A stretch of DNA of 32,758 bases from IMG/VR virus record IMGVR_UViG_3300037808_000568, positions 1 through 32,758 of that record, one strand, 5' to 3'. The position numbers and the translations under genes are program-made. Shown piece after piece: positions 11,993-24,725 of the stretch. Origin of the DNA: a virus. A model generated the notes under the pieces. That model was not told where the DNA came from and ran no database searches. It was given only the letters and a program-made list of their open reading frames with translations. Position 1 is the stretch's first letter, and each line of letters starts with the position of its first letter.

Positions 11993-13432
11993 TCAGGGTG
12001 CAGTAGTTGAAATTCTCACGATAGATGTAGCATCGATAACACCAGCCTTGGTTCTCCAAGTGGTATTAACTCTAACTTCGTTATCCTCTGGGATTTCGTG
12101 CATTTTAACGGTTACATCACGTTTAATTCCGATACCATATGAGTGGCGTGGAATACACATAATTGCGTTATATGCGTTGTTAGTTTGTGCTGTCTCATTC
12201 TCTACGGCATTCGTAACTACTAATTGGACTCCCATTAATTCCTCTAATTGGGCTTTGAGCCAAATGTCTGGAACTTGTCTGGTTGCCAATGATGTTACGT
12301 TTGTAGATGTGATAAGTTCTCTCCATTGTCTAGGATGTAAGAAACAAACTGGTTTAACACCACCTCGTAGATAACCTTGATCTTCTAAGTATTCTCTACC
12401 AAATGCGATGCCTGTTTCGTCCATAGTATTTGAAGCGACATCGGAGTCAGTAATTGTTGCACCTGTATCACCACGAATCCATAACCCTGGGGTTAAAGTT
12501 CCTTCTGCTGATACGGTTGTCAACATATCTGTTGCTACGAAATCTTCATAACTAGCACTTGATCCTTCCACAATAACTTGTAATAAGTCGAATGGGGAAT
12601 TTTCAATTTCATCAAAGTCACCAATTAAGTAAGTACCTGTGATGGTGCTTGGTGTTACTTCGACTGATGTGATAGTTTGAGTTGCTTCTGACGGAGTTGA
12701 TCCTACTGTTTGTGAACCGTTTGCTGGGAGAGTTGATTTAAAGAATCTTGCTCTATCTGCTCCTGCTGCGATTTCTTTCACTTTAGCGAATTGAAATACA
12801 GGTATGAAGGAGATTCCACCTGGAACAATAGCGACATCAGTATCTAAATCCTGTGTTGCATGTGTACCTGATAGTGAGACTGCTTCTTTAATTAGTGCAG
12901 GTGAACCTCTGTATGCTTCTCTAACGCCAGTAGATGGATCAGCTTTTCCTACTTGAACACTTCTAAAAGTGCTGTGTGGGATGTTGAACTGATATTTTCC
13001 ATTGACTTCGAGTGCTTTAACGTATTCACTTGCGACCTCATGAAGTGACTTTACTTGATCTGCTGAACCAGCTGATACTGTTGCTGTTGGTTTATGTTCT
13101 GCCATCTTTAGTTCGGCTACTTGTTTTTTGAGTTCTTTGTTCTCTTTTGCAATATCGGTGTTAGTATCTGCGATTTCTGGTTTTTCAGCGTTAGTTGGAA
13201 CACAACGTTGTTGTGCTGCATCATATTTGCTGTCTGGACCACATTCGTGATTAGTGACTTTAGAGTCTTCACCTGAATCTACTGCTGAATCTTTCAATTC
13301 TGCTTTTTGATCCTGTGCTTGACCGTCTTCTAATCCTTCTTTTGCTTTAGAAACGCATTTACCTTGAGAAACGTCGAAAGAGCTACCTTCTGGGCATTCT
13401 TTATCGTCCATTTCTTTACAGTTGCATGTCAT
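11993..13432 (-). CDS. Major capsid protein, HK97-fold type (479 aa)
   Basis: Residues 1-80 hold two Cys repeats (CPEGSSFDVSQGKCV and CGPDSKYDAAQQRCV) joined by an acidic linker. A short coiled coil follows at about 90-110, then a long region with the HK97 capsid pattern: an N-arm, a central domain with FIPVFQFAKVKEIAAG, and a C-terminal part with VCFLHPRQWRELI, VPDIWLKAQLEELMGVQLVVTNAV and a final ATSIVRIS. Position after the protease supports it. The N-terminal part may be a delta-like scaffold domain removed by the protease. A TATATAAA box lies 8 nt before the ATG. Confidence 0.8.
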   Translation of the reverse strand: MTCNCKEMDDKECPEGSSFDVSQGKCVSKAKEGLEDGQAQDQKAELKDSAVDSGEDSKVTNHECGPDSKYDAAQQRCVPTNAEKPEIADTNTDIAKENKELKKQVAELKMAEHKPTATVSAGSADQVKSLHEVASEYVKALEVNGKYQFNIPHSTFRSVQVGKADPSTGVREAYRGSPALIKEAVSLSGTHATQDLDTDVAIVPGGISFIPVFQFAKVKEIAAGADRARFFKSTLPANGSQTVGSTPSEATQTITSVEVTPSTITGTYLIGDFDEIENSPFDLLQVIVEGSSASYEDFVATDMLTTVSAEGTLTPGLWIRGDTGATITDSDVASNTMDETGIAFGREYLEDQGYLRGGVKPVCFLHPRQWRELITSTNVTSLATRQVPDIWLKAQLEELMGVQLVVTNAVENETAQTNNAYNAIMCIPRHSYGIGIKRDVTVKMHEIPEDNEVRVNTTWRTKAGVIDATSIVRISTTAP

Positions 13433-13469: not shown

Positions 13470-13565
13470 TCACTTTTCGTCTTTTACCCACTTTCTTTGA
13501 TTTCTAGGTATGTCAATGAATAACCATTTGAAATCACTATACGTCTTTGGGTCCTTCAAATTCAT
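13470..13565 (-). CDS. Microprotein between reductase and capsid (31 aa)
   Basis: ATG at 13565 lies inside the end of the reductase gene in another frame; the frame ends at 13470. The product (MNLKDPKTYSDFKWLFIDIP...) ends in a basic stretch. No family recognised. The overlap with the upstream gene is like other small genes here, but a chance frame of this size is possible. Confidence 0.35.
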   Translation of the reverse strand: MNLKDPKTYSDFKWLFIDIPRNQRKWVKDEK

Positions 13566-14709
13566 CTATTAATACCTCTATTCTTTCACGCTGTACAGTT
13601 GTTAAGGACTTACTTTCAGGTTTCTTTAGATACCTTTTGAGTTCGTCTACTGACTCTTGTAGCCTACCTTGTTTCTCTGTACCGTTGGCCTCTGTTTCCT
13701 TCAATATCTTAAAGTTTTGTTTTAACATACCGAATCCCTCATTAGTTGGATCTTTAGCCAGTCTTGTAGCCCAAAACTTATGTGCTGGGCATGAAGCACA
13801 TCCCATTCTCTCCATATCGTGAGCCTTATACGCTGGGTTCTTTGGTATACCATGAACTAGATAATACTTTTGTGTATCTTCCATAGTCCAAAATGATAAT
13901 GGTGTACAGTTTCTAATAGGGTACTTTATGAATGATTTTAGTATGGCTGTTCTACATCTCTGTAATACTGCATTAGATCTAGCGTTAGATTCTTGAGCTC
14001 TTGTACCTACAAAACTTAGATTATATCTGTCCTTTTCTGGTAGTGAATTGATGAATTTCTTCATTGATTTCTTTTTGAGTATATCACAACATTCAGGGGT
14101 TTTTCCTTTTGACCCACCCATCTCTTTTGCTGTCTTGTTTTTACCGTCTTTTTGTTTCTTTCTTATACTCCTAAAGGATGGTAAATGACCTACTTTCTTG
14201 GCTATACTCCATACTGTCATCATATTTCCTCTCTCATCTACTGGGGGTTTGAATAGTTTGACTTTATCCTGTATATCCCATAATTTAATCATATCAGCCC
14301 AATACTGTTTTTCTTCTTTGAAGGTGTTTAATGTATCATTGAGGAACATATCAGGATATTCTATACCTAACTTCTTACATGCTCTCATAACTAAGTGCAT
14401 TAACACAATACTATCTGAACCAAATGATGTGGCCACAAATGGTTTATCAAATGCTTTTAGGTGTTCCATTATAAACTCTAATGTTTCCTGTTCTTTCTGA
14501 TCAAACGGTTTAGATTGTTGTTCATACATCTCAAATGGGTATAATATGAAAGTCTTTGCTGCAAGTGATTTAGCCTTTAATTCCTCTGGTAATGCGTTAA
14601 ATTTCTCTCTAATAGTAGGGTCTATCTTGGTAAATCCATCATTTGGATCTCCACTTAAATGCGCCCATTTATACGGTTTATCAGTCAAATCTATGTCGCC
14701 AACAATCAT
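13537..14709 (-). CDS. PAPS/APS reductase-like PP-loop ATP-pyrophosphatase family protein
   Basis: A 390-residue protein. SFGSDSIVLMHL at residues 95-106 is the PP-loop of the PAPS reductase family, in a form with F and S replacing the usual G and K. GTRAQESNAR at about 235 is the family's Arg-rich motif. A CC pair near 208 and CASC about 95 residues later match the CC-x80-CxxC arrangement that binds a 4Fe-4S cluster in APS-reductase-type enzymes. Its reaction could be reduction of an activated sulfate, or thiolation as in DndC relatives. It is inserted between the protease/KTSC genes and the capsid gene, which is unusual. The zinc-ribbon gene overlaps its start. Confidence 0.75.
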   Translation of the reverse strand: MIVGDIDLTDKPYKWAHLSGDPNDGFTKIDPTIREKFNALPEELKAKSLAAKTFILYPFEMYEQQSKPFDQKEQETLEFIMEHLKAFDKPFVATSFGSDSIVLMHLVMRACKKLGIEYPDMFLNDTLNTFKEEKQYWADMIKLWDIQDKVKLFKPPVDERGNMMTVWSIAKKVGHLPSFRSIRKKQKDGKNKTAKEMGGSKGKTPECCDILKKKSMKKFINSLPEKDRYNLSFVGTRAQESNARSNAVLQRCRTAILKSFIKYPIRNCTPLSFWTMEDTQKYYLVHGIPKNPAYKAHDMERMGCASCPAHKFWATRLAKDPTNEGFGMLKQNFKILKETEANGTEKQGRLQESVDELKRYLKKPESKSLTTVQRERIEVLIDEFEGPKDV

Positions 14710-15092: not shown

Positions 15093-15815
15093 TTAGCAAT
15101 CGTGTTGGGTTTTAATCTCTCTATTGAAATATGCACCTTTACTGCTAGAGCCTTCCCACGCATCAAATTTACGTTCTGGTACATTACAGAATGCGTATAG
15201 TTTACCATTAAGCATTACTTCCATACTCAAATCTTCTGGGAAATAGTCTACATTACCCACGAAACTAGATGGTTCATTGAAGTTAGGTTGTCTATCTGTT
15301 ACTTTGATGTTTATTGCATCTGGTACAGGCTCATCTTTAATGTCTGATACTGGTTTATCTATTGGAGCATCTAGTATTGTCAAGACCAATGAGGCTAGTG
15401 ATATACCTAATGATGTGACTAGGATGTCTGTAAATTCTGATTTATCTACTGATGATAGTGATTTAATGTCTTTATCTGGCAAGTCTTTAAAATCCAGGTC
15501 TGCTAACTTTACATCTAACTTCATTTTTTTAAGTAAATCTCTTCTTTGTGCAGGTTTTAACTCTCCCCACATCTTATCTAGTTTATTCTTACTTATTGCC
15601 TCTTTAATTGGCTTCATCTCAGATACTAGGTCACACCATACATCATGTGCCTCTTTAAACTCGAATCTTTTCTTCTTTTTCTTGGATGATTGAATATTTC
15701 CACCACTAAGGCCACCTATATCCTCTTTTTTCTTCTTTTTTAGTGTACTTTGTGGACCTGATAAGTCTACTGCTTCATTTTGGGCAAAAATAGTTTGTTC
15801 TTTATCTATTTTTGG
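15093..15815 (-). CDS. KTSC-domain extension, probably made by -1 frameshift from the protease gene
   Basis: The frame is open from codon CCA at 15815 to the stop at 15093 (240 codons) with no ATG, GTG or TTG until ATG at 15617. Upstream it enters the protease frame at an A AAA AAC heptamer. The first part is a Lys-rich linker with two KKKKK runs. A helical segment with PAQRRDLLKKMK follows. The end is a KTSC domain: KLYAFCNVPERKFDAW then SSSKGAYFNREI, the family's SxGxYFNxxI signature. A separate 174-residue protein from 15617 is possible, but its upstream lacks a clear ribosome site. If frameshifting occurs, a protease-KTSC fusion of about 525 residues is made. Confidence 0.65.
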   Translation of the reverse strand, partial: PKIDKEQTIFAQNEAVDLSGPQSTLKKKKKEDIGGLSGGNIQSSKKKKKRFEFKEAHDVWCDLVSEMKPIKEAISKNKLDKMWGELKPAQRRDLLKKMKLDVKLADLDFKDLPDKDIKSLSSVDKSEFTDILVTSLGISLASLVLTILDAPIDKPVSDIKDEPVPDAINIKVTDRQPNFNEPSSFVGNVDYFPEDLSMEVMLNGKLYAFCNVPERKFDAWEGSSSKGAYFNREIKTQHDC

Positions 15816-16669
15816 TTTTTTTTTGCTTCACCACAGCAATCGCATAGGTGATTCTCTTTCATTGACTTTAGAATGTCGCCTAATGAAGATTCTATATTGA
15901 TATACTCTGTTCCTTTTCTTAACCCGATTAGTTGATTGGATAATACTGCTATATCGTTCTCTATCATCTCTATTTGGTTGGATAGCATTGGTTCTGGGTT
16001 ATCTTTGGCTAGTGTTTGGAATAGTTCGAGTGCTTCACCTTTGTATTTGATTTGTTGTTCTAATCCTTGAGCCATACTTGCGAATGAATCTTGCATAATG
16101 TTATCTGCTGATGGTTCTACACCTGCTACCTCTGTTACATCTGCTCTACCTATCTTGATGGTCTTGTGTATAATGTCAGATGCTCCATATCTTTTAAACT
16201 CGTTGTGGTCATGTTCTTTAATTGCTTTAATTTTATTATCGATACTTTCCATCATTACTTGGACTGATGTCTCTGGTACTCCTGGTGTTTCTGTTAGTGC
16301 TAAGCCTTCTGGGATTAATCCGAATGGCATAGAGAAACAATCAGATGCTCCATTACATACCTTCTTTACACTAGTTGGTTGTGCTTCTATACTTGTGAAT
16401 AATAGTTTATTTTTAGCTAATAATGCTGCTGATGGGTCTGTAATATCTCCCTCATAATATACTGTCTCGGTGTTTGCATCATATTGGAAGGTTACCTGAC
16501 CAATTACTTTATCAGGGTTATGCTCCCAATTAAGTGGAACTGTTACACCGTTGAATCTTGCTAACTCGGCCTTTGTATAGAGATTCTCATTCCTGGATAT
16601 TCTTGGAATAAGTGCTACACCATGAATATGTGCTGACTCACTAATAGTAGCATAACTCTCTATATTCAT
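15806..16669 (-). CDS. Prohead maturation protease with scaffold-like C-terminus (287 aa)
   Basis: The N-terminal 160 residues follow the HK97-type prohead protease pattern: HGVALIPRISRN, then PLNWEHNPDKVIGQV with His50, YYEGDI, and LLFTSIEAQPTS with Ser93, the likely catalytic His and Ser. GLALTETPGVPET is the usual post-catalytic loop. The rest is helical and charged, as for an attached scaffold, and ends CDCCGEAKKNQK. The poly-A run coding the final Lys residues contains the slippery heptamer. It lies between portal and capsid, as expected, and has a bipartite promoter-like element upstream. Confidence 0.75.
   Translation of the reverse strand: MNIESYATISESAHIHGVALIPRISRNENLYTKAELARFNGVTVPLNWEHNPDKVIGQVTFQYDANTETVYYEGDITDPSAALLAKNKLLFTSIEAQPTSVKKVCNGASDCFSMPFGLIPEGLALTETPGVPETSVQVMMESIDNKIKAIKEHDHNEFKRYGASDIIHKTIKIGRADVTEVAGVEPSADNIMQDSFASMAQGLEQQIKYKGEALELFQTLAKDNPEPMLSNQIEMIENDIAVLSNQLIGLRKGTEYINIESSLGDILKSMKENHLCDCCGEAKKNQK
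15815..15821 (-). other. Canonical -1 slippery heptamer A AAA AAC
   Basis: In the protease frame the codons read GCA AAA AAA AAC CAA AAA TAG. A one-base backward slip on A AAA AAC continues as CCA AAA ATA GAT, which is exactly the open frame of the KTSC extension. The stop in the zero frame follows only two codons later. A sequencing or assembly error in the 9-base homopolymer would give the same picture. Confidence 0.6.
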
Positions 16670-23833: not shown

Positions 23834-24075
23834 TGATATTTACTCCTTACTATACCTCTTAGTGATTTCCATCTGTTATGATACATTACTCCTAGTTCTG
23901 CTATTTGATTGGCCTGTTGTTCTATCTTTTTAAAGTTAGTTGATTGATTTGCTATCATTAGTGCTAGTTCTGCTTTCTTCATACGATTAAATGATTTGCC
24001 ATAGGTGTTAATAAATGATGCTTCTATCTCTACTGCTTGTTTCTTTGTTGGCTGTGGTATTATTGCTGTGGTCAT
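23830..24075 (-). CDS. Small basic helical protein (81 aa)
   Basis: An 81-residue helical protein with ATGA overlap with the matrixin stop. Its centre (AELALMIANQSTNFKKIEQQANQIAELG) looks like a coiled coil. No family recognised. Part of the cluster from the matrixin to the HNH gene. Confidence 0.5.
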   Translation of the reverse strand: MTTAIIPQPTKKQAVEIEASFINTYGKSFNRMKKAELALMIANQSTNFKKIEQQANQIAELGVMYHNRWKSLRGIVRSKYH

Positions 24076-24725
24076 CTATAATCATAACCTAATGTTCTAC
24101 GTTTAATGAAATAATCTATAATCCTCTGGGATAGGCCTCTCTTTCCATATCTACTTTGGATTCTATCTATATCGTATTTGTGCAGGGTATTTTTCTTCTT
24201 ACCTAGATCAAATGATGGGTACATAATACTATCCATTGTTCTTGTATCATGCTTTAATCCTAATCCATGACCTATTTCGTGGATAAGTATTGGTACTAGT
24301 GGTGGTTTTGATAACCTACTCCACATTACTGATGGTACCCATTCCCAATTATCGTTGATATGTACATCACCTGATTTATCTCCCTGTCCTGGATAATATG
24401 CGTGTGCTAATACTCCCTTCCTACCGTCAAAGTGGGCTAGGTTCTCAAATGATATGTTCATGTCTACAGGTTTGTTTGGATCTCTCTCCCTCTTGAATCG
24501 TAGATTCTTAATCCTTAATTGCCATACTCTAAATGCTACTGTTACGGCTCTTATCTGGTGTTTCTTGTTCTCTATATCGAATGTTGTATTGTTTAATCTG
24601 TATGTTATTGTTCCACTAGGCCAATTATGTGGCCATTCATCTTGTATCTCTGACTCTCCTATTGTAGATGCTTGAATCTCTCCCTTTAATCCGTTCATGG
24701 ATAGTTCGCAGTAGACTTCGCACAT
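24072..24725 (-). CDS. Matrixin-type metalloprotease (217 aa)
   Basis: The motif HEIGHGLGLKHD (His149, Glu150, His153, His159) is the metzincin zinc site, with the Met-turn SIMYP at 167-170. The upstream LAHAYYPGQGDKSGDVHIND is the structural zinc and calcium segment of matrix metalloproteases, and WPSGTITYRL starts the domain. So a whole catalytic domain is present, without the Cys-switch propeptide; no clear signal peptide is seen. I infer cleavage of host S-layer or other cell-surface proteins, at entry or lysis. It follows a T-rich tract after the two-helix membrane gene. ATG at 24725 is the furthest upstream start; ATG at 24698 is possible. Confidence 0.85.
   Translation of the reverse strand: MCEVYCELSMNGLKGEIQASTIGESEIQDEWPHNWPSGTITYRLNNTTFDIENKKHQIRAVTVAFRVWQLRIKNLRFKRERDPNKPVDMNISFENLAHFDGRKGVLAHAYYPGQGDKSGDVHINDNWEWVPSVMWSRLSKPPLVPILIHEIGHGLGLKHDTRTMDSIMYPSFDLGKKKNTLHKYDIDRIQSRYGKRGLSQRIIDYFIKRRTLGYDYR

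Follow-up and report, generated by a model that had tools for sequence, protein, structure and literature searches.

A run of nine or ten A's, at which an open −1 frame takes over from the 0-frame, is conserved at the 3′ end of a predicted capsid protease/scaffold gene throughout a family of archaeal-type viruses. By every sequence test available the feature is real and functional. We give a probability of about 0.7 to the reading that the run is a programmed slip site yielding a minor fusion of protease, scaffold, cassette and KTSC domain that would be carried into the procapsid, slippage by the polymerase being somewhat likelier than by the ribosome.

The proposed slip site and the two reading frames

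The window, that is the whole stretch of DNA analysed, is an IMG/VR virus record of 32,758 bases. On its minus strand the protease gene, with the portal gene upstream, ends in GAA GCA AAA AAA AAC CAA AAA TAG. The features of the site are as follows.

15806..16669, minus strand: 0-frame ORF of 287 residues, with protease domain (about residues 11-133), coiled-coil scaffold-like region (188-274), a CxxC motif and KKN at the slip site
15816..15824, minus strand: A9 slip run (T9 on the plus strand), containing most of the heptamer A AAA AAC
15821-15815, minus strand: in-frame heptamer A AAA AAC
15096..15824, minus strand: −1 frame ORF comprising a Lys-rich linker, a helical domain with hydrophobic segment and a C-terminal KTSC domain; 243 codons from the run, 240 after the slip
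15095-15093, minus strand: stop codon of the −1 ORF
15093..15278, minus strand: KTSC domain region, the extreme C-terminus of the predicted fusion (Pfam residues 181-234 of the window ORF 15093-15809, minus strand; by alignment)

The opening of the −1 frame lies a single codon before the run, and no ATG, GTG or TTG occurs in it until codon 69 as counted from the run (66 after the slip). A −1 slip reads ...EAKKN/PKIDKEQT... and leads to a predicted product of 525 residues, of which the last 60 or so are the KTSC domain (PF13619, E 3e-12, 46.4 bits against a gathering cut-off of 25). The preliminary description had placed A AAA AAC at the end of the protease frame and had counted a 240-codon −1 frame, startless for 66 codons and ending in KTSC; the site is found at exactly that position on the minus strand, recounting gives the same lengths and Pfam confirms the domain. 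The heptamer is indeed present in-frame, but the site is better described as an A9 run. An Rfam search of the window returned no matches. In a window of 64% AT a single A9 is not improbable (1.5 are expected in dinucleotide shuffles); one run alone is thus unremarkable and the weight of evidence rests on the relatives.

Genome context, host and relatives

The major capsid protein (MCP) gene lies downstream of the protease/KTSC pair, in the relatives as in the window.

11993..13432, minus strand: major capsid protein, 32.7% identical to the annotated protease/MCP of the Nitrososphaera provirus Pro-Nvie1

In the window KTSC and MCP are separated by a gene with a PAPS-reductase domain (13537-14709); most relatives have the MCP gene close behind KTSC. 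The window also encodes a matrixin-type metallopeptidase (24072-24725; PF00413, 4e-30). The nearest named relative is the Nitrososphaera viennensis provirus Pro-Nvie1 (FR725450; TerL 44%, MCP 33%, protease 33%), and the window virus encodes an MCM helicase. The assignment to an archaeal virus made in the preliminary description is thereby supported, if indirectly; judged from these sequences the host is likely thaumarchaeal, and this family of marine tailed viruses probably infects ammonia-oxidising archaea. A provirus search of 84,980 genomes with the protease and MCP found none, nor did a DNA-level search of named phage records give a match.

Searches with the protease and MCP yielded some 40 IMG/VR contigs. 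Counts of runs refer to 33 of these plus the window (n = 34), all with an intact and unambiguous protease end; the relatives' proteases range down to about 55-60% identity with that of the window. The run is A9 in 31 of the 34 and A10 in the other three (L007, L038 and L051), never shorter and never interrupted, and the frame that continues after it is −1 in every case. The set holds 24 distinct site sequences drawn from many metagenomes. Alignment of relatives, proposed earlier as a check, therefore bears out the frame offset, and none of the close relatives joins the two parts in one plain frame; the feature that is kept is, however, an A-run of at least nine and not the heptamer A AAA AAC. 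Homopolymers do mutate, and the three A10 alleles might be taken for one state of a phase-variable gene in which replication slippage between A9 and A10 or A8 turns the fusion on or off. With such a switch both states should turn up, yet all 34 contigs are in the same one, and in the A10 alleles the run lies in another codon phase, which preserves the −1 offset; we give such switching a very slight probability.

Three contigs stand outside the counted set. L032, in which no run is read and an N falls within the site, was left out. L057 is divergent (MCP 45% identical) and has neither run nor KTSC. In L056, also divergent, the protease has no run and the scaffold is a separate downstream gene with a coiled coil and CPDCGE. 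Near its end this scaffold gene reads GGT AAA AAA AAA GCA, and a −1 slip leads into a startless frame encoding a helical domain and KTSC. As the split retains the site on the scaffold gene, the slip site evidently travels with the scaffold part.

L056, 7079-8175: split scaffold gene with A9 site and −1 KTSC frame, third codon phase

The −1 frame is coding

In the KTSC region the median pairwise dN/dS in the −1 frame is 0.12, indicating purifying selection, and in the linker it is 0.31. Ten of 26 loci have no ATG, GTG or TTG from the point where the frame opens up to KTSC; in the shortest of these startless loci that point lies just 1-2 codons ahead of the run. In the other loci the sole such codon is found either within the protease gene, 6-9 codons ahead of the run, or well downstream. 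In two relatives the slip leads into a metallopeptidase-like ORF whose stop precedes KTSC, which is there a separate gene. Since the −1 ORF stops short of KTSC in these two, the fused part is the cassette and not the KTSC domain.

L038, 5570-6948, and L051, 5063-6837: KTSC ORF with an overlapping ATG and a CPxCG motif of its own

A normal start for the downstream gene, which had been named as evidence against a slip, is thus seen for KTSC in L038 and L051 and is absent before KTSC in the ten startless loci. These separate KTSC genes, the in-frame ATG at codon 69 of the window (15617) and the TTG or ATG that several relatives have 6-9 codons upstream of the run could suggest two independent genes, with KTSC started internally or just upstream of the run. 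Such an arrangement leaves the ten startless relatives, the purifying selection on the linker in the −1 frame and the A9 run itself unexplained, and we leave it a slight probability. Sequencing error might also come to mind, homopolymers being error-prone, but the kept offset, the restriction to A9 and A10 and the spread over contigs, metagenomes and site sequences all contradict it; a decaying gene would not be under strong selection past the site. The relatives refute both, and the probability of either is negligible. For the family, selection together with the startless loci excludes sequencing error, decay and two ordinary genes.

The upstream protein

Pfam, PHROG and PDB-sequence searches did not recognise the protease; it was the fold alone that showed its identity. 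An AlphaFold model was built from 19 aligned sequences (mean pLDDT 66, about 80 in the beta domain). The top Foldseek matches were all herpesvirus assemblins (best E 1.4e-3, low TM), and VIA-align superposed model residues 11-133 on the VZV protease with Z 8.5 and rmsd 2.8 over 95 aligned residues; the top VIA-align matches fit the coiled coil only and are uninformative on function. His-50 (in PLNWEH) and Ser-93 (in TSIEA) are invariant in the 19 sequences. The assemblin-like fold of the model, the coiled coil at residues 188-274 and the MCP gene downstream together point to a herpes/HK97-type capsid maturation protease with a coiled-coil scaffold, and the modelled fold supports the name "prohead protease" already given to it. 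The slip site is preceded, at a distance of a few codons, by an almost invariant CxxC motif (window 15844-15833, minus strand; CDCC, CGHC, CKCC and CEDC across viruses), possibly a zinc site shared between subunits.

The downstream cassettes and KTSC

The Pfam cut-off for KTSC is passed in relatives too. In many viruses only a Lys-rich linker separates the run from KTSC (a total of 89-130 codons). In the window, L007, L047, L054 and L056 KTSC is preceded by a helical/TM domain, which includes a hydrophobic segment, and others have 200-400 extra codons between run and KTSC. The preliminary description did not take in this variable cassette; the tail is not always just KTSC. Five of the longer cassettes (L007, L014, L021, L038 and L051) contain an HExxH motif, and weak family matches for these cassettes are DUF6782 (1.5e-3), M90 (7e-3), phrog_87 "metallo-protease" (1.6e-3) and M91 "effector protein" (0.07). 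No MuF domain was matched in the upstream protein or the scanned cassettes.

An ADP-ribosyltransferase was considered for the cassettes of L015 and L034, which carry YHYT, FRGTS and QAEVR-like motifs, and was rejected: no profile supports it, the cassettes have no relatives and the single-sequence model reaches a pLDDT of 42. No named phage matched the linker motifs WITVNGVHIPI and HAPAGDSKGGQF, and a search with the −1 ORF alone returned patterns but no confirmed relatives. The peptide CWKGYKQIGMKDKDGKQVPNCVP, found ahead of KTSC in L015 and L038, is common to more than 300 phage records, mostly of cyanophages but also of haloarchaeal viruses, and the phage proteins that bear it are mostly annotated as hypothetical protein. 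For the end of the L021 contig (about 6380-6421) the translation is VSYTHLTLPTILRV, apparently an artefact from an adapter.

Run length, phase and flanks

The run lies in codon phase 2 in 28 contigs, in phase 1 in six and in phase 0 in L056, and the base after it is C or G. With three codon phases and either base following, length is the kept feature. Ahead of the Lys pair stands S, L, E, A, V, P or I, depending on the virus, yet A is invariably the last base of that codon; in the same genes A-ending codons account for only 37-71% of those used for these residues. Tracts of KKKK to KKKKKK further down the same ORF serve as an internal control: AAG is used in 61 of their 128 codons, and none of the 25 tracts contains A9. 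Apart from L056's own site there is no other sense-strand run of at least nine A's in about 351 kb of contigs; T9 occurs in four places. No stable downstream RNA structure was detected at the site (mean z −0.13 for pseudoknot-free folds of the loci folded), and no shared Shine-Dalgarno-like motif was seen by eye upstream of it.

Polymerase or ribosome

Given that slippage takes place, we slightly favour the RNA polymerase as its agent, because the run length is kept in any phase and no stable structure was detected beside it. Nine A's is also the length known to be prone to slippage in many bacteria, and the one at which signs of avoiding RNA-polymerase slippage are seen in many of their genomes (PMC1088944). 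The literature search found no study of archaeal RNA polymerase slippage at A-runs.

The same fusion could be made by −1 ribosomal frameshifting on an in-frame A AAA AAC, A AAA AAG or A AAA AAA, to which we assign a little less than an even chance. An in-frame X XXY YYZ is present at every locus, each A9 also containing an in-frame A AAA AAN, and a 0-frame stop stands immediately after the slip codon in half of the distinct loci (15 of 30). The constant −1 direction likewise favours the ribosome; that it never differs among the homologues runs against the expectation for transcriptional realignment, for which a free shift direction is the usual, though not a required, feature. Constancy of direction was taken by the GeneTack authors as a sign of ribosomal frameshifting, and in the same study magnesium chelatase cassettes with A7, A9 and A11 gave 10, 40 and 63% frameshifting in E. 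coli, the frameshifted form of this gene family being found in archaea too (PMC3711429); −1 frameshifting is moreover reported for archaeal viruses (PMC5009743). Against a ribosomal slip, six or seven A's would suffice for it and yet none of the 34 runs is below nine, the run stays the same whichever A-site codon is present (AAC, AAG or AAA, for Asn or Lys), the codon preceding the Lys pair always has A as its third base, and a stimulator structure was not detected. Neither a stimulatory structure nor an upstream Shine-Dalgarno sequence is always required for −1 ribosomal frameshifting. Of the original proposal, then, the programmed −1 joining of protease and scaffold to KTSC is supported by the site and the offset; ribosomal frameshifting on A AAA AAC is a possible, somewhat less likely mechanism for it.

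Proposed mechanism and relation to known systems

In the slippage model most of the product would end just past the A9 run as a 287-residue protease and scaffold. A fraction would slip to −1, somewhat more likely through an extra A put into the mRNA by RNA polymerase than on the ribosome, and would extend to 525 residues with protease, scaffold, Lys-rich linker, virus-specific cassette and KTSC. The minor amount of fusion and its location in the prohead, both suggested in the preliminary description, would fit such a scheme. The scaffold half would take this minor chain along into the procapsid, much as retroviral Gag carries Pol, and the protease may later free the cassette and KTSC there.

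Retroviral Gag-Pol and totivirus-type packaging (PMC5009743) offer the closest parallel in principle: a minor frameshift extension of an assembly protein brings further domains into the particle, and a protease processes them. The present case differs in being a tailed DNA virus with the protease in the predicted major product and an A9 run without detectable structure. The passages of PMC5009743 on head and tail genes describe minor, C-terminally extended morphogenesis proteins in the T3/T7 coat, the Listeria phage PSA capsid, lambda G-GT and the archaeal HVTV-1 and HCTV G-T; none of the frameshifts in those passages lies at a prohead protease/scaffold gene or adds KTSC or a swappable cassette. 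Thermus dnaX and the transcriptional slippage of IS elements (PMC1088944) resemble our site in an uninterrupted A9 conserved among homologues that gives an alternative C-terminus, whereas here the shift is always −1, the gene is structural and from an archaeal-type virus, and polymerase slippage is a proposal.

Herpesvirus pUL26 assemblin and the HK97-type prohead proteases share the protease fold and the union of protease and scaffold in one polypeptide. They differ in that here the C-terminal extension would arise by slippage and the sequence is too distant for Pfam or PHROG. Pro-Nvie1 (FR725450) has homologous terminase, MCP and protease, but its protease is fused to the MCP in frame, and the 15 kb examined contain no A-run of eight or more and no KTSC. 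MuF effectors and other head-protein fusions, which the present set resembles in logic, join a head protein to a variable enzymatic cassette (zincin-like and others), and such cassettes are thought to be packaged and delivered; in bacterial phages the fusions include enzymes joined to the capsid-processing serine peptidase (PMC5576092, PMC5512222, PMC9503650). Unlike these, our proteins have no MuF domain, would be joined by slippage rather than in one frame and would end in a constant KTSC. By analogy with these systems, the extra tails probably reach the virus head on slippage-extended copies of the protein. A more specific version is tentative and in our view rather doubtful: polymerase slippage at A9 might append interchangeable effector-like cassettes and a KTSC tag that are packed in the head, cut free by the protease and then passed on to the next host cell.

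Few cases of programmed frameshifting are documented for archaea or archaeal viruses, most of them in tail chaperones. If the polymerase is the agent, this would be the first archaeal-type gene known to us to rely on programmed transcriptional slippage. The putative slip site is retained by a whole viral family at the capsid protease/scaffold gene, and members differ naturally in codon phase, in the base after the run, in gene order and in cassette, which makes the choice between ribosome and polymerase directly testable. The arrangement suggests how additional domains might be packed into the heads of archaeal viruses. Automatic annotation will label the cassettes startless or separate genes, so that candidate injected proteins of marine archaeal viruses are being overlooked as a class.
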